Part shown: positions 32,010-50,623 of the stretch, one piece after another | Numbering within the stretch: position 1 is the first letter of the stretch | Layout of the letters: each line of letters begins with the position of its first letter | From: Flavobacterium dankookense | GTDB lineage: Bacteria; Bacteroidota; Bacteroidia; Flavobacteriales; Flavobacteriaceae | Direction: 5' to 3' | NCBI RefSeq assembly: GCF_004362665.1 | Contig: NZ_SNXR01000015.1 | Coordinates: forward strand, 248,001 to 312,000 | DNA: 64,000 nucleotides | Program-made: the position numbers and the translations under genes | The notes under the pieces: generated by a model | What the model saw: only the letters and a program-made list of their open reading frames with translations | Databases searched by the model: none | Told to the model about the DNA's origin: nothing

Positions 32010-32708
32010 ATGATGAACAAAAATATCCATTTACAAGATTTAGGGAATAAAGATTATAAAGTAGCTTGGGATTATCAAGAGCAGCTTTTTAAGGAAATTG
32101 TTGATTTTAAAATTCATAAGAGAAGTAATCCAGAAACTGTTACTCCAAATTATTTTTTATTTGTAGAACATCCACATGTTTACACCTTAGGGAAAAGTGG
32201 CGATGTTTCTAATCTTCTTTTATCTGAAAAACAATTAGAAACAAAAGGAGCTACTTTTTATAAAATAAATCGTGGTGGCGACATCACTTATCATGGTCCA
32301 GGACAAATTGTAGGTTATCCAATATTAGATTTAGAAAATTTCTTTACAGATATTCATAAATATTTGCGCTTTTTGGAAGAAGTCATAATTTTAACACTTT
32401 CAGAATACAATATAATAGGTGTAAGGAGTGAAGGTGAAACTGGCGTTTGGTTAGATGTTGGAACTCCGTTCGCGCGAAAAATTTGTGCGATGGGAGTTCG
32501 AGCCAGTCGATGGGTTACCATGCATGGTTTTGCACTAAATGTCAATTCCGATTTAGGCTATTTCGATAATATAATTCCATGTGGAATAAAAGGAAAAGCG
32601 GTTACTTCTTTAAATGTTGAACTTGGAGTTAAAGAAGTAAATGAACAAGAAGTTAAAGAAAAAATTCTAAACCATTTTTCAAACTTATTTCAATCTACAT
32701 TTATTTAA
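32010..32708 (+). CDS. lipB: lipoyl(octanoyl) transferase
   Basis: 232 residues. The RGGDITYHGPGQIVGYP segment near residue 90 is the family signature. The lysine of FARKICAMG near 155 and cysteine of IIPCGIKGKAVTS near 193 are the catalytic pair. It transfers octanoate from acyl-carrier protein to lipoyl domains, which LipA then converts to lipoyl groups. The E2 protein at 5551-6840 is one plausible recipient. Two tandem ATGs make the start ambiguous by one codon. It is convergent with rnhB, 13 bp apart. Confidence 0.95.
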   Translation: MMNKNIHLQDLGNKDYKVAWDYQEQLFKEIVDFKIHKRSNPETVTPNYFLFVEHPHVYTLGKSGDVSNLLLSEKQLETKGATFYKINRGGDITYHGPGQIVGYPILDLENFFTDIHKYLRFLEEVIILTLSEYNIIGVRSEGETGVWLDVGTPFARKICAMGVRASRWVTMHGFALNVNSDLGYFDNIIPCGIKGKAVTSLNVELGVKEVNEQEVKEKILNHFSNLFQSTFI

Positions 32709-33517: not shown

Positions 33518-36500
33518 ATGAGATCGAAGTTCAAATGGATTTTTTCGCTACTATTAGCGTTTTCAATGCAGCTTTCCTTCGCACAAGAGAAAACTGTGAC
33601 AGGTGTTGTTACTGATAAACTTGGACCACTTCCTGGTGCCAATGTTGTCGTTAAAGGTTCAACCAATGGTGTGCAAACTGATTTTGATGGTAAGTATTCC
33701 ATCAAAGCCAAAGCAGGCGATGTACTGCAAATTTCCTTTACTGGTTATGATGCCAAATCTGTAACAGTTGGTTCTGCTAATAGTTACAATGTTGTTTTGA
33801 CTGAAGGTGTTGTGCTGGATGAAGTGGTTGTAGTGGGATATGGTACTTCGACTAAAGAACGATTTACAGGTACTGCTACAAAAGTTACAATGGAGAATAT
33901 TGAGGCAAAAGCGGTTACTAACGTGTCTCAAGCGCTTCGTGGTGAGGTAGCTGGTGTTAACGTTGTTTTAGGATCTGGTGCTCCAGGAAGTGAAGCGACA
34001 ATTCGTATCCGTGGATTTGGATCAATTAATGGTAACAGAAATCCATTGTATGTTGTGGATGGTGCTCCATTTAGTAGTGATATTTCGGCTATCAATCCAG
34101 CTGATATTGAGTCTATGGTTGTTCTAAAAGATGCTGCTGCAACCTCTATATATGGTTCCAGAGGTTCTAATGGGGTGATATTGATAACAACCAAACAAGG
34201 AAAGTCTGGTAAGTCTCAGATTTCGGTAGACTTTAAGACTAGTGTCAATTCAAATTCATTGCCTGCATATGATGTAATAACTTCACCTGAAGAATATATT
34301 GAGCTTTCTTGGAAAGCATTAAAAACTAAAGGAGCTCTATTAGGTGAGTCAAATCCAGCAGCATGGGCAAGTGCAAACTTGTATAGCGCTACTGGTGATG
34401 GAGAATCTATTAATAATGCTTACAATATTTGGAATGCTAGCGGTAATAGTCTTATAGATCCTTCTACAGGTAAATTTGCAAATGGTATTACAAGAAAATA
34501 CACTCCAACTAAATGGTCTGATGCAGCTTTTGGTACAGGTTACAGAAGTGAGGCAAATTTATTATTTAGTGGAGGAAATGAAAAAACAAAATATGCAACT
34601 TCATTTGGTTTTGTTGAAGACCAAGGGGTAGTTACAAATTCGTCTTACAAGCGTTATACCACTCGTATTAATTTGGAGCACAAACCGAAAGAATGGTTGA
34701 CTGCGTCTGGTAATATATCCTATACTGGCGCAAAATACACAAATTCTGGAAGTGATGAAGGTGAAGCAGGTTCTTCGGGAAATATTTTTGCATTAACGAG
34801 CACTACTCCAGCTATATATGATATTTTTTTAAGAGATACTAATGGAGATTTAGTTGAAGATCCAATATTTGGTGGAAATCAATATGATTATGGTGCTTTA
34901 ACTGGAAGAAGAGCATGGAATAGTACGAATGCAATTGCTGATGCAAAGTATGATAGAGTTAGAGATTTGGCTACTACTTTATTAGGTAATTTCAACTTTA
35001 AAATTGATATTACTAAAGATTTGGCTTTTGAAACTAGATACAGTGGGCAATATCAAAATAATGATTATGCCTCAAGAAACAATCCATTTTATGGTGGAAG
35101 TGCAGAAGTTGGTGGTTCTTTGTTTAAGGATATCCGTACTAATAAAAATCAAAACTTTTTACAATTATTGCGTTACAGTAAAACATTTGGACGTCATAAT
35201 TTAGAGACTTTTGTGGCGCATGAGTCAACTCAAAATGAGATTAACGTTATGACTGGTTCAGCACAAAATGCTGTTAACCCTTATACTTTTGACTTAGCTC
35301 AGTATACTACCGCAACAGGTAGAGCAGATTCATTCTCTCAGCGTTGGGCAATAGAAAGTTATTTTGCTCAACTAAACTATGATTTTTCCAAAAAATATTT
35401 TCTAACTGCTTCAGTAAGAAGAGACGGTTCTTCTCGTTTTATAAAAAATAAATGGGGAACTTTCGGTTCTGTTGGTTTAGGCTGGATAGCATCTAAAGAA
35501 AGTTTTTTATCAAATGTTAAAGCAATTGATTATTTGAAATTTAAAGCAAGTCTTGGTTCTATTGCTGACCAAGGAACTAATGTTCAGTATGGTTTCCAAA
35601 CATATTCAATTGAGAATACAGTTGGTGGATTATATTCTTTTTTAATATCTAACACAGCTGCTAACAGAAATCAAACTTGGGAAAGTGCTGAAATATTACA
35701 AGTTGGTTTAGAGACTGTTTTATTTGGTAATTCTTTGGAAATAGATGTTGATTATTATGTTAAGAATACCAATAACTTATTCTTTAATCAGGCACAGCCA
35801 GGTTCGTTTGGATTTGCTACACTTCAGATTAATGATGGACAGTTGCGCAATAGCGGTTTAGAGTTTGATGTTTTAGGACACATTTTTAAAGCAAAAAATG
35901 CAGGTGATTTTTCATTGTCTGTTGGTGTGAATGGGGAAATTTTGGAAAACAAAATAACTCAAATGCCTAGAGGTTTAGATGGTGTAAGAAGGGTATTTGA
36001 CACTGCTAATGAAATTTCTAAAGGTAGATCTCAATATGATTGGTTCATGAGAGAATGGGCTGGTGTTGATCCAGCTAATGGTTCTGCCCTATGGAATTTA
36101 TATTATAATGATGTTAATGGAAATGGTATTTTTGATGATGGTAATGTTAATGTTATTCCTAACATGGTTAATTATTTAAGTCAAAACCCTGATGCAAACG
36201 TTCAAAAAACTACAACTTCAAATTATGCTCTTGCAACACAAAAGTATGTAGGAAAATCTGCTATACCAACAGTTAGAGGTGCTTTCAGAATCAATGCAGG
36301 CTTCAAAAATCTTGATTTAACGGCACAATTTGGTTATAGTTTAGGAGGTTATGCATATGACAGCGGTTATGCTTTATTAATGAGTAATAGAGGTTTGATA
36401 GGTGCTGACAATTTCCATACTGATATAAGAAAGGCTTGGTCACAACCAGGTGATGTAACGGATGTTCCTAGAACATCGGCTTCTTTCGATACAGATGTAC

Positions 36501-36760
36501 AGTTTAGTGCAGAATCAACACGTTTCTTAATTAAATCTGATTATTTATCTCTTAATAATATACGTTTAGGCTATACTATTCCTAAAGATTTCTTGTCTAA
36601 GATGATGCTTTCAAATGTTAATTTATTCGTTTCAGGTGATAATTTATTTGTTCTTAGTGCAAGAAACGGTTTTAATCCTACTACTATTATTAGTACTACT
36701 AATACAGGTATATATACACCTATGACTACATTGAGTTTTGGTGCAAAAATTGAATTTTAA
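33518..36760 (+). CDS. SusC/RagA-family TonB-dependent outer-membrane transporter
   Basis: 1080 residues. A signal peptide (1-22) is followed by a carboxypeptidase-D-like plug-extension domain (VTGVVTDKLGPLPGANV, about 25-95) and DEVVVVGYGT. Next come the plug (ALRGEVAGVNVV, TIRIRGFGSINGN, YVVDGAP, VLKDAAATSIYGSRGSNGVI) and a C-terminal beta-barrel ending in Phe. It imports ligands too large for porins, using TonB energy, with its SusD partner as lid. SusD lies 11 bp downstream. The substrate is not shown by the sequence, but the subtilase downstream suggests peptides. Confidence 0.93.
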   Translation: MRSKFKWIFSLLLAFSMQLSFAQEKTVTGVVTDKLGPLPGANVVVKGSTNGVQTDFDGKYSIKAKAGDVLQISFTGYDAKSVTVGSANSYNVVLTEGVVLDEVVVVGYGTSTKERFTGTATKVTMENIEAKAVTNVSQALRGEVAGVNVVLGSGAPGSEATIRIRGFGSINGNRNPLYVVDGAPFSSDISAINPADIESMVVLKDAAATSIYGSRGSNGVILITTKQGKSGKSQISVDFKTSVNSNSLPAYDVITSPEEYIELSWKALKTKGALLGESNPAAWASANLYSATGDGESINNAYNIWNASGNSLIDPSTGKFANGITRKYTPTKWSDAAFGTGYRSEANLLFSGGNEKTKYATSFGFVEDQGVVTNSSYKRYTTRINLEHKPKEWLTASGNISYTGAKYTNSGSDEGEAGSSGNIFALTSTTPAIYDIFLRDTNGDLVEDPIFGGNQYDYGALTGRRAWNSTNAIADAKYDRVRDLATTLLGNFNFKIDITKDLAFETRYSGQYQNNDYASRNNPFYGGSAEVGGSLFKDIRTNKNQNFLQLLRYSKTFGRHNLETFVAHESTQNEINVMTGSAQNAVNPYTFDLAQYTTATGRADSFSQRWAIESYFAQLNYDFSKKYFLTASVRRDGSSRFIKNKWGTFGSVGLGWIASKESFLSNVKAIDYLKFKASLGSIADQGTNVQYGFQTYSIENTVGGLYSFLISNTAANRNQTWESAEILQVGLETVLFGNSLEIDVDYYVKNTNNLFFNQAQPGSFGFATLQINDGQLRNSGLEFDVLGHIFKAKNAGDFSLSVGVNGEILENKITQMPRGLDGVRRVFDTANEISKGRSQYDWFMREWAGVDPANGSALWNLYYNDVNGNGIFDDGNVNVIPNMVNYLSQNPDANVQKTTTSNYALATQKYVGKSAIPTVRGAFRINAGFKNLDLTAQFGYSLGGYAYDSGYALLMSNRGLIGADNFHTDIRKAWSQPGDVTDVPRTSASFDTDVQFSAESTRFLIKSDYLSLNNIRLGYTIPKDFLSKMMLSNVNLFVSGDNLFVLSARNGFNPTTIISTTNTGIYTPMTTLSFGAKIEF

Positions 36761-36771
36761 AAAAGAAAGAT

Positions 36772-38268
36772 ATGAAAAAAAGTGTTATTTATTCGATTGT
36801 CATTACTTCTTTACTTAGTGTTGGATGTGGTGAAGAGTTTTTAGATCCTGTTAGAAATACACAGGTTATAACTAGTGAAGAGTTAGCTGCCTTAGCTCCT
36901 GATAATCCTGCATTGATAGCGGGTACTCTTGAGGGAGTTTATAGCTTTATGGTTCAGCCAGGTGGTGTACTAGGAACAAGTCGTCATTACGACTTAGGTC
37001 AAAAAGGAGTTGATATATACACAGATATGTTATCTGGAGATATGGCATTATCTGCTAACTCTTATGGGTGGTATCAAAATGTTGCTAATCTTGTAACTAC
37101 TGTCGATTTTACAAGAGAAGAAAATAGAATTGTTTGGAATTATTATTACAAAGTTATTAATATATCCAACGCTGTAATTAATAATTTAGGTGGAAATGAT
37201 GCGGTTCCAGCAGATGCTACTACTAGACATTTTATGGGTCAAGCAAAAGCTGCAAGAGCTTATGCCTACTTTTATTTGACGCAATTATTTCAAAAAGAAT
37301 ATAACCCAACTCAAGAGATTTTACCTTTTTATGATGGTGTTATAGTAAGTCCTGCTAAAGTTCCTGCATCTCAAATCTATGATCAAATAATTGAAGATTT
37401 AAATCAGTCTATTGAGTATTTAAGTGATTACACTAGACCGTTAAAGAATCAAATAGATAAAAATGTTGCAAAAGGTTTATTGGCATATACGTATGCAGCA
37501 ATGGGTAACTATTCAGAAGCAAAGATTTTATCTGAAGATATCATAAATACAGGAGGTTATCCTCTTACTACAACTGGTCAGCTTGCTTTCCCTGGTTCTG
37601 GTTCAGGATTTAATAATGTAAACACTCCTTCTTGGATGTGGGGTTATGATATTACAAATGAAATGGGTCATCAATTAGTTAATTGGTGGGGTCAAGTTGA
37701 TTATTACACTTATAGTTATCAATGGGCTGGTGATAGAAAAGTTGTAGATAGCGGTTTATATGCTGCTATACCTTCAAATGATATCAGAAAATCACAGTTT
37801 GGAACTTCTGGTGTTACTAATGGTATGCCAATTAATAAGTTTTTTGATCCAGGAAGAGCTGCTGGTGGACAACAAGCTATTACAACGGATTATATTTTCA
37901 TGAGAATTGAAGAATTCTATTTATTAAGTGCTGAATGTTCAGCTAACTCTGGTGATGAAGCAACTGCTAAAAACAGACTTAAAGAATTGATGGCGCTACG
38001 TTTAGGTAGTTTGGCTAATGCTAATGCATATGTAGATCCATTGGTTGGACAAGCTCTTAAAGATGCTATCTATTTACAGACTAGGATTGAGTTTTGGGGT
38101 GAGGGTAAAAGTTATTTAGCTTTAAAACGTAATAAAGCAACTTCTACAAGAGGTACAAATCATGTTTTCCGTTCAGGACAGTCTTTCTTTTATAATACTG
38201 ACGAAATGTCTTTCCAGATACCAGAAAATGAATTGCTTAATAACCCAGCTATTACAACTCAAAATTAA
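36772..38268 (+). CDS. SusD/RagB-family nutrient-binding lipoprotein
   Basis: 498 residues. The lipobox LLSVGCGEEFLDP places the lipidated Cys near residue 19. TPR-like helices (FMGQAKAARAYAYFYLTQLF, AKGLLAYTYAAMGNYSEAK) and the C-terminal helical region are typical. It acts on the outer face of the outer membrane as the lid and ligand-capture subunit of the SusC pore. It follows SusC by 11 bp and precedes a further lipoprotein by 26 bp. Confidence 0.92.
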   Translation: MKKSVIYSIVITSLLSVGCGEEFLDPVRNTQVITSEELAALAPDNPALIAGTLEGVYSFMVQPGGVLGTSRHYDLGQKGVDIYTDMLSGDMALSANSYGWYQNVANLVTTVDFTREENRIVWNYYYKVINISNAVINNLGGNDAVPADATTRHFMGQAKAARAYAYFYLTQLFQKEYNPTQEILPFYDGVIVSPAKVPASQIYDQIIEDLNQSIEYLSDYTRPLKNQIDKNVAKGLLAYTYAAMGNYSEAKILSEDIINTGGYPLTTTGQLAFPGSGSGFNNVNTPSWMWGYDITNEMGHQLVNWWGQVDYYTYSYQWAGDRKVVDSGLYAAIPSNDIRKSQFGTSGVTNGMPINKFFDPGRAAGGQQAITTDYIFMRIEEFYLLSAECSANSGDEATAKNRLKELMALRLGSLANANAYVDPLVGQALKDAIYLQTRIEFWGEGKSYLALKRNKATSTRGTNHVFRSGQSFFYNTDEMSFQIPENELLNNPAITTQN

Positions 38269-38294
38269 CTTTAATTAATTTAAATTTATTAATC

Positions 38295-39110
38295 ATGAAA
38301 TTTAAAAAATCATTATTTTTTCTCTCATTACTATCGATACTTTTCACATCAATTAGTTGTGAAGACGATTCTGCAACTACGAGTAATTTATCGAGTTTTG
38401 TTGGAGTAGAAGAAGCAAAAAATGTTGGAGTAGTTCTTGGCGAAACTATTGTTGTTGAGTCTAAAGTATATGCTTCTAATGCAACAAATACTGATAGAGT
38501 TTTTAATTTAGTGGTAGATGCTGCTACAACTCATGCTCAAACTAATTTTGTTGTGCCAGCAACGGTTACTATACCAGCTGGTTCAAAAGAAGGTGTTTTT
38601 CAAGTTAGTATTGTTGGTAATAGTATTGCCAATGCAGGAAATAAACTTGTATTATCTATGGCTGAATTAGATGGTAATAATCAGAATTTCGTTTTCAATT
38701 CAGACTCTCAAACTTATTCAAATAAGAAAATTGTATACAATATCTCTGAAGTTTGTCAAACAGGTTTAACTAAAGTTCAATTAGCTATAAAATTTGATAA
38801 TTTCCCTGAAGAAACTGCATGGGAGCTTTATGACTCTAGTTTTAATGTAGTTTCATCTGGTGGTTTTACTGGTACTGCTATAACTGGTTATGCAGCTTTA
38901 GGTTTTGCTGACAGAAGTACTTTTATTTCAAACTTTTGTTTAGCTCCTGGTACGTATACTTTTGTTATCTATGATGATTATGGTGATGGAATGTATACTA
39001 GTGCTACAGTTTCTGGTGATTATTCATTGAAACTTGCTGATGGTACTGTCTTAGCATCTGGTGGTGGTGATTTCGGTACTTTTCAAGATACTGAATTTAC
39101 AATTCAATAA
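38295..39110 (+). CDS. lipoprotein of a SusCD locus, possible surface binding protein
   Basis: 271 residues with a lipobox near SISCEDD (Cys22), whose acidic residues after Cys resemble the lipoprotein export signal of Bacteroidota. The first half looks like a Calx-beta or DUF4843-like sandwich (VPATVTIPAGSKEGVFQVSI). The second half (TYTFVIYDDYGDGMYTSATVSGDYSLKL) is a small beta domain seen in secreted flavobacterial proteins. Third in the SusCD operon and ending at a strong terminator, it probably helps bind the imported substrate. No enzyme motif was seen. Confidence 0.7.
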   Translation: MKFKKSLFFLSLLSILFTSISCEDDSATTSNLSSFVGVEEAKNVGVVLGETIVVESKVYASNATNTDRVFNLVVDAATTHAQTNFVVPATVTIPAGSKEGVFQVSIVGNSIANAGNKLVLSMAELDGNNQNFVFNSDSQTYSNKKIVYNISEVCQTGLTKVQLAIKFDNFPEETAWELYDSSFNVVSSGGFTGTAITGYAALGFADRSTFISNFCLAPGTYTFVIYDDYGDGMYTSATVSGDYSLKLADGTVLASGGGDFGTFQDTEFTIQ

Positions 39111-39129
39111 GTAATTTTATTTATTTTTT

Positions 39130-39164
39130 AAAAACCGAAACTTTTTAGTTTCGGTTTTTTTTTT
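39130..39164 (+). terminator. terminator of the SusCD operon
   Basis: AAAAACCGAAAC and GTTTCGGTTTTT form a 12-bp stem with a 6-nt loop, followed by a long T-tract, 20 bp after the lipoprotein stop. Confidence 0.9.
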
Positions 39165-39192
39165 AAATCTTTATTTATTGATTCTTTTTTCA

Positions 39193-39200
39193 TATTTTTG
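39193..39200 (+). promoter_or_regulatory. -7 promoter motif for the subtilase gene
   Basis: TATTTTTG matches TAnnTTTG, 34 bp before the ATG at 39234. It suggests that the protease has its own promoter downstream of the SusCD terminator. The -33 match is weak. Confidence 0.45.
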
Positions 39201-39233
39201 AATTTAATATACAATTATCAAAAAAGTAAGTCT

Positions 39234-41159
39234 ATGAAAAAGTCACTTTTAATTTTTTTAGTAACCTCTTTTACTTGTTTTTCTCAAACGGTCAAAGAGA
39301 TTGAGTTTATAAGAAGTAAATATAATTTGGATGAAATTAATATTTTAAAAGAAAATATTATTAATTCAAATACATTACGTTCTAATAGGGTTCAGAATTA
39401 TTTAAATTCAAATTTTAATAAAAGTCTTGAATTTTATAGCGGTGGAATCAAATATATGATTTATGATGTTATTGATAACAGTCCAGTATATATTTCCACG
39501 GACAATAGATTGAGTGCATTAGCTTCAAAAACAAATACTCTCTACCCAGGAGGTAGCTTAGGATTAAATTTAACTGGTTCTGGTATGAAGGTAGGTGTAT
39601 GGGAAATTAATTGGCCTTTAGTTAATCATCAAGAATTTATGTCAAATTCGGTTTCAAAAGTTACTGTACCTGACTCTTCATCTCCAACTCCTAATGCGGA
39701 GTTGCATGCTACTCACGTTGTTGGAACTATTGCAGCTAAAGGTGTTGTAGCTAATGCGAAGGGTATGGCATATGAGTCTAATATTGTTGCCTATACTGCA
39801 TCTAATGATGCATTTGAAGTTACTGATGAAGGTTCAAATAATGGACTTTTAATATCTAATCATTCTTATGGTGTTCCTGTTCTTAATGATAATGGCGAGT
39901 TAAATGTTCCAAATTGGTATATGGGTTGTTACAATTCTACAGCAAGAGAATGGGATCAAGTTTCACAAAATTTACCTTATTATTTAATGGTAACTTCTGC
40001 TGGAAATTCTGGACTAGACAGTTACCCAAATGGACTTCTTGCCGGAATCGATAAGCTAACTGGTAACAAAAACTGTAAAAATAATTTAGTTGTTGCAAAT
40101 GCAAACCCGACTGTAAATCCTATCACTGGAGTGATGTCTAATTTAGTTATCAATCCGTCAAGTAGTCAAGGTCCATCTGACGATGGTAGAATTAAACCAG
40201 ATATTGCTGCGGATGGGACAAATCTATTTTCATCAAGTAGCGCTTCTACAACTAGTTATGATACTTTAACAGGAACATCGATGGCATCTCCAACTGTTGC
40301 AGGGACTTTAATATTATTGCAGCAACATTATAATAATTTGAATTCTAATTTCATGCGTGCAGCTACTATAAAAGGTTTAGTTTGTCATACAGCATTAGAC
40401 GACACTAGTAACATTGGTCCTGATCCATATTTTGGTTGGGGATTTTTGGATGCAAATTCAAGTGCAAGCTTAATAAGTAATGCTAGTTCTCCAAATCCAA
40501 CTGCTTTAATAACAGAAAGAACTATTTCGCAATCTGGTGTTAATAGTACTTATTCTTTTCAAGTAACTGTTAATGATCCCAAAACATTGAAGGCTACTTT
40601 GTGTTGGACTGATATTGCTGGTTCGTCAAGAGATAACCAGCTTAATTCATCAACTAGAGCATTATCTCATGATTTAGATTTAAAGATTATAAAAAACTCG
40701 GAAACTTTTTTTCCTTGGAAATTAGATTTAAATAATTTAGCTGGTCCAGCTATTAAGGGTGAAAATTTAGTTGATAACGTTGAAAAAGTTGAAGTAGATA
40801 ATGCGATTGGTACTTATACAATACAAATAACTAAAAAAGGATTTTTATCTGGAGGTTCCCAAGCATATAGTTTAATTGTTTCAGGTTTTGATCAAGTAAG
40901 TCTATCAAATAGTCAGTTTTCGCAGAATAAAATTGCTGTTTACCCAAATCCTGTTAATGATATTTTATATGTAAATAGTGAAGTAAATAATTTTACAGCT
41001 TATGAATTATTCGATATTCAAGGTAGACTAATAAAAAAAGAAATAGTTTCAAATTTAAATAGCTTTGAAATTGAAACATCTTCATTAATAAAAGGAGTTT
41101 ACATGCTAAACTTAAAATCTGACAATGGTGTATTTACACAAAAGATAGTTAAGAGATAA
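39234..41159 (+). CDS. S8 (subtilisin-like) protease with T9SS sorting domain, catalytic Asp replaced
   Basis: 641 residues from ATG 39234 (a TTG extension to 39198 would precede the signal peptide). The signal peptide ends CFSQ. The subtilase core has His in LHATHVVGTIA near residue 162, the oxyanion Asn in SAGNSG near 260 and Ser in GTSMASPTVAGT near 348. At the usual catalytic-Asp site the sequence reads KVGVWEINWP, so Glu replaces Asp. A beta-sandwich follows, then a T9SS type A domain (VYPNPVNDILYVNS, ELFDIQGRLIKKE). It is probably a surface or secreted peptidase. Activity is uncertain because of the Asp change. Confidence 0.85.
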   Translation: MKKSLLIFLVTSFTCFSQTVKEIEFIRSKYNLDEINILKENIINSNTLRSNRVQNYLNSNFNKSLEFYSGGIKYMIYDVIDNSPVYISTDNRLSALASKTNTLYPGGSLGLNLTGSGMKVGVWEINWPLVNHQEFMSNSVSKVTVPDSSSPTPNAELHATHVVGTIAAKGVVANAKGMAYESNIVAYTASNDAFEVTDEGSNNGLLISNHSYGVPVLNDNGELNVPNWYMGCYNSTAREWDQVSQNLPYYLMVTSAGNSGLDSYPNGLLAGIDKLTGNKNCKNNLVVANANPTVNPITGVMSNLVINPSSSQGPSDDGRIKPDIAADGTNLFSSSSASTTSYDTLTGTSMASPTVAGTLILLQQHYNNLNSNFMRAATIKGLVCHTALDDTSNIGPDPYFGWGFLDANSSASLISNASSPNPTALITERTISQSGVNSTYSFQVTVNDPKTLKATLCWTDIAGSSRDNQLNSSTRALSHDLDLKIIKNSETFFPWKLDLNNLAGPAIKGENLVDNVEKVEVDNAIGTYTIQITKKGFLSGGSQAYSLIVSGFDQVSLSNSQFSQNKIAVYPNPVNDILYVNSEVNNFTAYELFDIQGRLIKKEIVSNLNSFEIETSSLIKGVYMLNLKSDNGVFTQKIVKR

Positions 41160-41183
41160 TACAGCAGTTATTTTTTTATGTTT

Positions 41184-41229
41184 AATTTCTCATTACATTT
41201 GCTTTGTTAAGTAATTGTAATGAGAAATT
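41184..41229 (+). terminator. 13-bp inverted repeat spanning the porin start codon, with internal -7 motif
   Basis: AATTTCTCATTAC at 41184-41196 pairs perfectly with GTAATGAGAAATT at 41217-41229, which contains the porin ATG (41220) and is followed by a T-rich run. TACATTTG at 41194-41201 overlaps the left arm and loop and matches the -7 consensus. It could be the subtilase terminator, a start-codon trap for read-through mRNA, or both. Confidence 0.65.
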
Positions 41230-43163
41230 TTATTTTATTTTGTTTTTGTATTTATTCTATTAATATTTTTTCCCAAAGATCTTTGAGTATTGGAGGTGGT
41301 AAAAGCGAGAAAGACACTACATCCACAGCGAGTAAGGAGAAAAATTTTAAAACTTCAACTTTCGACCAATATCGAATCATAACCCTTCAAAAGGACACAA
41401 CCTACGTTGATACATCTTTAACCATAAAAAAAGAATACGAATACAATTATCTTCGTAAAGATATTTTTGGACTTTTACCTTTTGCCAATGAAGGGCAAAC
41501 CTATACAGCATTAGATTATGGTTATAAAAAACAATTTTCGTTCCCTGAAATTGGTTTTTCTGGCAAGCATTTCAATTATATGCAAGTTAACGACATTAAC
41601 TATTATTCAGTTGCAACACCAATAACTGAGCTATATTTTAAAACCGTCATGCAACAAGGGCAATCAGTTGATGCATTAATAGCGGTTAATACCTCAGAAA
41701 GATTTAATATGTCTGTTGCTTTTAAAGGACTACGTTCTCTTGGAAAATACATCAACCAGTTATCAAGTACAGGAAATTTTCGTTTTACGACAAGTTATAA
41801 CACTTTAAACAAAAGATATTTTCTAAACTTTCATTTTACAGGACAAGACTTTCTTAACGGTGAAAATGGTGGAATAACCACTATTGAAGATTTTGAAGGA
41901 GAAAATCCAGACTTTGATAATCGTGCGCGACTTGAGGTTTATCTAACAGATGCCAAAAGTTTTATGAAAGGAAAAAGATATTTCTTAGACCATAATTTTA
42001 GAATTAATTCTAAAGCTGCTAGCAATAATCTTTTCATAACACATCAATTCAATTACGAAACCAAGTTCTTCGAATACAATCAACGCACAGTTCCATCTAC
42101 TATCGGAACAACAAGAATAAATCGTTTTGGAGATTCATATCTAACTGCTGGTATCAATGACCATACGCGCTACAACCGAATGTATAATAAAGTCGGTGCA
42201 ATATATGAAAACACAACACTTGGAAAGTTTCAGTTCTTTGCCGAAGATTTTCGATATAATTACTTTTACAACAAAATCTTAATTCTAGACTCAGGAATTG
42301 TTCCAAGCAAATTATCAGACGAAATTAATACCGTTGGTGGTCAATACGAATACAGAAAAAACAAATGGAACGGAATATTTCAATACTCAAATTCCATTTC
42401 AAATCAACCAATGACAAATCTTGATGCGCAACTGACATATAAACTCAACGAAAAAAACGAGTTTCATTTTCAGTACCAAATGTTGAATAAAATCCCAGAT
42501 CATATCTATAATTTATATCAAAGCAGCTATGTGCAATACAACTGGGCAAATGATTTTAACAACGAAAAAATAAACAATCTTCAAGCAACAGCTAAAACGC
42601 AATGGTTCGATGCAACACTAAAAATAAGTTCCATCAACGACTACCTATATTTTAGTAATGCTGCAACAAATCCTCTTCAACAAATCATTTCCCCAAAACA
42701 ATACGACAAAACCATCAACTACCTTTCCATAAAAGCTAGTCGCGAGTTCAAATGGTGGAAACTTGCCCTAGACAACACCATTTTATATCAACAAGTTGAC
42801 CAAAAAGACGATATACTAAATGTGCCACAAATCACCACTAGAAACTCACTTTATTTCACTAATTTTTTCTTCAAAAAAGCACTTTTTCTACAAACCGGTT
42901 TCACGCTCAACTACTTCACCAAGTATTACATGAATGACTACAACCCAGTCGTTACTGAAGCTTTTGTACAAACCGATAGGAAAATTGGCGACTTCCCAAT
43001 GCTAGATTTCTTTGTAAATGCACGAATTCGTCAAACAAGAATTTTTCTCAAAGCCGAACATTTTAACACGCTTTTCTCGCCAAACAAATACTATACAGCA
43101 CCAAATTATCCCTACCGCGACTTCATGGTTCGCTTCGGATTAATCTGGACTTTCTTTCAATAG
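41220..43163 (+). CDS. putative outer-membrane porin (Porin_10-like)
   Basis: 647 residues with a signal peptide (1-18, ending FSQR). After a short polar region, residues about 90-647 consist of alternating amphipathic beta strands with aromatic ends and a final Phe-Gln, typical of a large outer-membrane barrel. It resembles the 'putative porin' family common in Flavobacteriia (DIFGLLPFANEGQ, ALDYGYKKQFSFPEIGF). The substrate is unknown. It follows the subtilase by 60 bp, with the start codon inside an inverted repeat. Confidence 0.8.
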   Translation: MRNFILFCFCIYSINIFSQRSLSIGGGKSEKDTTSTASKEKNFKTSTFDQYRIITLQKDTTYVDTSLTIKKEYEYNYLRKDIFGLLPFANEGQTYTALDYGYKKQFSFPEIGFSGKHFNYMQVNDINYYSVATPITELYFKTVMQQGQSVDALIAVNTSERFNMSVAFKGLRSLGKYINQLSSTGNFRFTTSYNTLNKRYFLNFHFTGQDFLNGENGGITTIEDFEGENPDFDNRARLEVYLTDAKSFMKGKRYFLDHNFRINSKAASNNLFITHQFNYETKFFEYNQRTVPSTIGTTRINRFGDSYLTAGINDHTRYNRMYNKVGAIYENTTLGKFQFFAEDFRYNYFYNKILILDSGIVPSKLSDEINTVGGQYEYRKNKWNGIFQYSNSISNQPMTNLDAQLTYKLNEKNEFHFQYQMLNKIPDHIYNLYQSSYVQYNWANDFNNEKINNLQATAKTQWFDATLKISSINDYLYFSNAATNPLQQIISPKQYDKTINYLSIKASREFKWWKLALDNTILYQQVDQKDDILNVPQITTRNSLYFTNFFFKKALFLQTGFTLNYFTKYYMNDYNPVVTEAFVQTDRKIGDFPMLDFFVNARIRQTRIFLKAEHFNTLFSPNKYYTAPNYPYRDFMVRFGLIWTFFQ

Positions 43164-50577: not shown

Positions 50578-50623
50578 ACCGTTACATTATAAAGTTTCAT
50601 AACTTTGATGTAACGGTTTTTTT
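50578..50623 (+). terminator. rpsU terminator ending at the xerC start codon, with -7 motif in its loop
   Basis: ACCGTTACAT at 50578-50587 and ATGTAACGGT at 50608-50617 form a perfect 10-bp stem. T617-T623 is the U-tract, and the next base is the A of the xerC ATG. TAACTTTG at 50600-50607 in the loop matches the -7 consensus. Confidence 0.8.

Follow-up and report, generated by a model that had tools for sequence, protein, structure and literature searches.

The porin gene of the DNA studied here, a 64,000-nt stretch of a Flavobacterium genome of 3.21 Mb (the window), begins inside a hairpin that holds a conserved box, very probably the porin promoter, in its left arm, is followed by a U-rich tail and recurs at orthologous porin starts. 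We regard it as probable that this hairpin is the terminator of the upstream operon, fused with the promoter and the start of the porin gene, and that it also hides the start codon in read-through RNA. From the sequence we infer the transcription start, the termination and the block of translation, and the original prediction, which had read the repeat in a similar way, is as a whole partly supported.

According to the proposed mechanism, RNA coming from upstream would carry both arms, fold and be released at the U-rich codons 3–9 of the porin. In the molecules that read through, the stem would enclose the porin AUG, and translation would be poor. A polymerase starting from the −7 box in the left arm would produce an RNA with its 5′ end in the loop and no left arm; this short RNA would not be terminated at the hairpin, and its AUG would not be hidden by this stem. 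The left arm would thus act as a promoter in the DNA and as half of a terminator in the RNA, and the expression of the porin would be independent of the activity of the neighbouring operon.

Results

Genes at the junction

All genes of the junction lie on the forward strand. Upstream of the porin are genes for a SusC protein (33518–36760, Pfam Plug/TonB barrel), a SusD protein (36772–38268, Pfam SusD), a protein of 271 residues with no Pfam match (38295–39110) and a T9SS subtilase (39234–41159, Pfam Peptidase_S8 and Por_Secre_tail). They make up a variable cassette (33518–41159), probably form one operon, and their RNA is proposed to end at the hairpin. The porin gene (41220–43163) encodes a Porin_10 protein (PF14121). 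A match to this porin is present in 387 of the 398 Flavobacterium genomes searched, and the closest named record by porin is that of F. solisilvae with 85% identity, in a comparison from which records very near to the window may be left out.

Inverted repeat over the porin start

A perfect 13-bp inverted repeat with the porin ATG in its right arm had been described at this place. It is confirmed, with the arms AATTTCTCATTAC (41184–41196) and GTAATGAGAAATT (41217–41229), and is longer than described. The repeat reaches inward to give 21-nt arms on the forward strand, 41184–41204 and 41209–41229, with 19 of 21 positions paired (90%) and a 4-nt loop (41205–41208); the ATG (41220–41222) and codons 2–4 sit inside the right arm. 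The overlap of the −7 element with the left arm holds in full for the 21-nt arm, which contains the entire box TACATTTG (41194–41201), and for three bases only, the first ones of the box, in the 13-bp arm. The GTA in front of the ATG pairs with the TAC of the box.

When folded as RNA, a 62-nt stretch reaches −21.5 kcal/mol versus a mean of −5.25 for its shuffles (z −8.0), and 0 of 200 shuffles were as stable; the hairpin has, by these values, the stable stem-loop of an intrinsic terminator. It also has the U-tract. The U-rich TTATTTTATTTTG follows directly 3′ of the stem. In the window this tract is broken up, no T-run exceeding 4, which counts against the reading as a terminator; the longest T-runs in G200, G171, G281 and G301 are 7–10. 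The whole tract (41228–41245) covers porin codons 3–9 and is the proposed release site, as suggested by its sequence and by the comparison of T-richness given below. The outer stem is AT-rich, which counts against this reading too, and a simple consensus scan, which required a G+C-containing stem, a loop of 3–8 and a T-run, found 0 terminator-like sites at 41000–41500 and did not call the hairpin. The best stand-alone terminator-like hairpin between the subtilase and the porin has only −6.0 kcal/mol. Seven consecutive T (41171–41177) follow the subtilase stop; only a weak hairpin lies close by, and the run is possibly a decayed stand-alone terminator. The Rfam search gave three matches, every one below its gathering score.

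An invertible promoter of the phase-variation type was also considered and set aside as unlikely, judging from the mere 20 bp between the perfect arms; the core-pattern search described below could not have detected an inverted copy of the segment.

Probable promoter box and predicted short RNA

The sigma-70 scan is uninformative for this phylum. A box of the form TAnnTTTG begins 17–29 nt before the ATG in 103 of 143 distinct orthologous porin starts, a count to which one locus (L198), whose last box lies nearer to the ATG, was added by hand. In 22 more the box begins 40–56 nt before the ATG, and 8 of the 143 have none within 140 nt of it. Since the box is conserved at its place before orthologous ATGs, TACATTTG of the window, which begins at −26 and agrees with a published consensus (PMC9723704), is very probably the promoter of the porin, and the −7 element that had been proposed is supported. 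The mapped transcription starts of F. psychrophilum, as given in the promoter data of the same source, place the −7 box at −12 to −5 and show a median leader of 24 nt (PMC9723704). With this spacing the predicted first base of the porin RNA lies in the loop, at about 41206, which would leave a leader of about 14 nt and exclude the left arm, in agreement with the earlier suggestion that RNA from the internal promoter lacks that arm.

The two RNAs differ in their modelled folds. The long RNA from upstream pairs the AUG completely (mean pairing probability 1.00), so that it would hide the start codon as predicted and would have a start-covering stem of the sigG type (see Discussion). The short RNA, modelled at 45 nt, is almost unstructured (−0.5 kcal/mol); the AUG is nonetheless paired at a probability of 0.69 in its weak ensemble, which counts against our explanation. 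Members of the phylum initiate translation without Shine-Dalgarno sites. In F. johnsoniae, RNA structure between −20 and +20 tunes initiation (PMC6847099), which speaks for our explanation.

Two other arrangements were seen near porin starts. A stretch resembling TTTTTTTATGATTTTATTACAAATTGTTTTGTGTATTTTTGC is strongly conserved about 60 nt before the ATG in clade A (clades defined below), at porin loci such as L033, L047 and L114. These porins are without a start hairpin, the stretch exceeds the length needed for a −7 box, and it reads as a short in-frame ORF in some loci and is stopped in others. At the porin start L025 of genome G011, codons 2–4 pair with the −7 box through another perfect repeat of 9 bp, ACCTTTGTC/GACAAAGGT. 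This is a second way of joining the box and the start, at a locus that also has a strong stand-alone terminator.

Recurrence of the hairpin in Flavobacterium

A search of 398 Flavobacterium genomes for the pattern CTCATTACNTTTGN{6,20}GTAATGAG gave matches in 6, and the reversed pattern, used as a control, gave none. All six matches are located at the start of a Porin_10 ortholog and share five extra bases on each side, with different loops; their total length is 34–36, the spacing of the arms varying by two bases. Three of the porins are 79–100% identical to that of the window (clade A) and three are about 50% identical (clade B). Because the hairpin recurs at orthologous starts, chance is a poor explanation for it.

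The left arm alone, TTTCTCATTACnTTTG, was found in 32 of the 398 genomes, as against 9 for its reversed control, and it lies upstream of the porin in 14 of the 19 matches listed out of 30. Clade B keeps the left arm even where the right arm matches partially. The shared left arm was therefore rejected as a proof of structure, and its conservation is in part the conservation of a promoter.

Genome G277 has AAAATCTCATT/AATGAGATTTT in place of AATTTCTCATT/AATGAGAAATT, with both sides changed at two pairs and the pairing kept, and it also loses one inner pair. The covariation term of RNAalifold over the six loci is slightly unfavourable (+0.45). Matched outer arms of different sequence were seen by eye in G211 and G284. 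The arms of a locus pair better with each other than with swapped arms: the observed mean of clades A and B together was reached by 2 of 5000 permutations (33 of 5000 for clade B, 78 of 5000 for clade A), and that of 54 other loci with the box near by 121 of 5000. Removal of the six canonical loci weakens the joint result to 193 of 5000 and, with its three canonical loci removed, clade B gives 254 of 5000; the signal is absent in clade A without its canonical loci (3993 of 5000).

Start hairpin and stand-alone terminator

The order in most of the clade-A relatives read is the upstream stop, a GC-rich terminator, the promoter and the ATG. Fifty loci, 28 from clade A and 22 from clade B, were scored for a stand-alone terminator and for a start hairpin, and the two features are nearly mutually exclusive in these clades. 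Among the 9 loci that lack a strong stand-alone terminator, 5 have a start duplex of −15 or below, versus 1 of the 41 loci with such a terminator (Fisher 3.3e-4, and 3.9e-3 at a looser terminator cut-off), where the cut-offs for hairpin and terminator were picked after seeing the data and the Fisher tests, here and below, ignore relatedness.

The contrast follows the upstream gene. Six loci, namely L001 (the window), L032 (F. solisilvae), L113, L196, L206 and L217, have in common an upstream subtilase, 58–66% identical to that of the window, which ends 60–75 nt before the porin ATG. Upstream of the other 44 are other genes, subtilases of at most 42% identity or, at one locus, no ORF that could be found. 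A start hairpin of −12 or below is present at 6 of 6 loci with this subtilase versus 2 of 44 others (Fisher 1.8e-6), and a strong stand-alone terminator at 41 of the 44 others versus 0 of the 6. The sequence after the stem is richer in T at the six loci than at the other 44 (one-sided p 0.008), and its longest T-run is also longer (p 0.003). Three further porins, in G150, G101 and G141, lie downstream of a subtilase of 44–51% identity; their stand-alone terminators reach −12.9 to −23.1 kcal/mol, and their start duplexes are weak (−6.6 to −7.8). A strong terminator and the hairpin are both present in G325, and neither feature is present in G193, a sister of the carrier G281 with another gene upstream. 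Outside clades A and B, 4 of 93 loci reach −12 and 0 of 93 reach −15; three of these four (L079, L025 and L011) have strong terminators, and L111 is without one.

On a quick porin tree the presence of the hairpin (−12 or below) changes at least 8 times. A tree-aware test, with pairs on well-supported branches that differ in the terminator, yielded 6 independent pairs, on average 3.9 favourable versus 0.1 against, with a median p of 0.125, six pairs being too few to give significance in a sign test. The original prediction held that the hairpin could terminate RNA from upstream, and the comparative pattern suggests that it may indeed be the terminator of the upstream gene.

Counts in the same genome

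The original prediction asked for an excess of such nestings in the genome and took its lack as refuting. The sample covered 864 kb of the same genome (27%) with 718 predicted starts; each ORF of 100 codons or more was taken to begin at its first ATG, so that some starts are wrong. For a contiguous helix over the start codon the porin ranks first of the 718; shuffling of the upstream sequence produced 0.15 of them per 718 starts on average, and never more than 1 in any of 20 shuffles, versus the 1 observed, and at a lower cut-off 4 were observed versus 1.4 expected. The porin ranks second of 718 by duplex energy. A duplex of −16 or below was found at 2 starts versus 0.8 with swapped arms, and one of −15 or below at 8 starts versus a mean of 1.4 in five swaps (0–4), several of the top hits resembling, by eye, wrong starts or tRNA sequence. 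The TAnnTTTG box lies within 3 of 74 terminator-like hairpins in 334 tandem gaps; 29 permuted motifs gave a mean of 0.83 in the same survey, and one of them reached at least 3. No convincing excess was thus seen in the 864-kb sample for start helices or for boxes in terminators, and the strength of the hairpin by itself is unusual and possible by chance. We consider the excess test a weak one, since this structure is found again at orthologous starts.

The xerC gene had been named as a second such nesting in the window, and it proved to be a different one, with the ATG after the T-run and outside the stem. The arms of its terminator (50578–50587 and 50608–50617) are followed by T6 and immediately by the ATG (50624). 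A promoter box TAACTTTG (50600–50607) lies in the terminator loop, and the RNA is predicted to start inside the right arm. The xerC gap (508 nt) is outside the survey of tandem gaps.

Apparent exchange of the upstream cassette

Nine stretches around the porin, eight of them long, were compared with the window; the ninth, from G277, contained the subtilase and the porin only. The lipoate ligase gene lplA on the other flank (32010–32708 of the window) is 76–86% identical in the eight long stretches, and the identity of SusC to the window ranges from 27 to 66%. G200 and G171 have a SusC of 60% identity, versus 84–86% for the ligase and 79–85% for the porin on the flanks. The clade-B carriers G301 and G281 have SusC identities of 66% and 56%, though their porin is merely 52% identical. 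A distant SusC (27–31%) is found in three of four genomes without the start hairpin, and in G222 related SusC, SusD and 271-aa genes are present and the subtilase is absent. The six subtilases are 59–67% identical to each other, irrespective of the porin identity (48–85%). As the identity of the cassette does not track that of the flanks and the porin, the SusC-SusD-protein-subtilase cassette appears to be exchanged as a block between Flavobacterium genomes at a fixed site.

In the three clade-A carriers, residues 1–5 of the porin agree at 93% with those of the three clade-B carriers, versus 42% with their own clade. The same comparison for residues 6–19 gives 39% versus 32%, and 83 of 3276 triples are as high. 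These values are suggestive only: the porin 5′ end might move along with the cassette, or its likeness could be due to selection on the hairpin. Put tentatively, the cassette might spread with a terminator that is completed by the promoter, the start and the first codons of its neighbour, so that transfers would replace the porin 5′ end and the porin would stay insulated; we hold this to be possible and rather doubtful.

Discussion

Alternative explanations

The fused element has to be weighed against other explanations. The hairpin might only end the upstream RNA, with the start lying inside it for want of space and the hiding of the start having no role of its own. This is a possible account, less probable than ours; the trade-off with stand-alone terminators needs no effect on translation. 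The structure at the start is, on the other hand, expected from the cited part of the F. johnsoniae work to lower initiation in the genus (PMC6847099), and any read-through would bring some hiding. It could also be that the two arms are under independent constraints, the left one as a promoter and the right one as the start of the signal peptide (ATGAGAAATTT), and are complementary by accident, with the hairpin idle. The retention of the left arm where the right arm matches incompletely, the common start ATGAGA among these porins and the start-hairpin counts near those of shuffles in the genome sample all agree with such an accident. We nevertheless find it unlikely: strong pairing tracks a missing stand-alone terminator and one upstream gene, the GTA before the ATG pairs with the box, G277 altered both arms together at two pairs, and the T-rich tail is left over.

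A dimeric regulator might bind the inverted repeat as an operator in the DNA, given that the repeat spans the porin promoter and that six genomes carry the same arm sequence. The variation of the arm spacing by two bases among the six matches (34–36) and the one genome that retains the pairing with different bases argue against an operator, which would also leave the link with the upstream gene and its terminator unexplained; it was set aside as very improbable. Template-switch correction during replication can create perfect repeats and paired changes. It might have perfected a near-palindrome here with no selection for an RNA fold. The recurrence tied to the subtilase cassette and to the missing terminator would remain unexplained by it, as would the U-rich tail, and we give this origin only a slim chance. 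The terminator fused with the promoter and start of the porin is the reading that we prefer.

Significance and comparison with known systems

If this reading is true, the roles of terminator, promoter and translation start are combined in about 60 bp, in a phylum that makes no use of Shine-Dalgarno sites, and the comparative set suggests that the fusion is used when one particular cassette, without a terminator of its own, lies upstream. The junction would then be a testable example of an exchangeable operon that adjoins a conserved gene and leaves it undisturbed. It would also mean that a consensus scan can overlook a terminator that is AT-rich and overlaps signal-peptide codons. No description of this junction was found in a library of open-access papers.

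One likeness is to the stand-alone terminators of the relatives, which also place a hairpin and a T-run soon after the stop of the upstream gene. They differ in having a GC-rich stem, a separate promoter and then the ATG, whereas in the window all three share the 60 bp or so. Transposase genes and phage T4 transcripts offer another parallel: RNAs that start outside carry a 5′ arm which hides the start, and RNA from the internal promoter is without it. Those are genes of mobile elements or phages, whereas here a chromosomal porin stands beside an exchangeable nutrient-uptake cassette.

The principle has its closest precedent in sigG of B. subtilis. A large hairpin is proposed to block the translation of read-through RNA from the upstream spoIIG operon, and transcripts from the promoter of sigG itself are unable to form it, as set out in the part of the study on this hairpin (PMC5942855). 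The porin hairpin would act in the same way. A terminator role is absent from the description of sigG in the cited part, whereas the porin hairpin has a U-rich tract after its stem. The porin also differs from sigG, as described there, in having the AUG itself as part of the stem and the −7 box within the left arm, and in belonging to a phylum that uses no Shine-Dalgarno sites.
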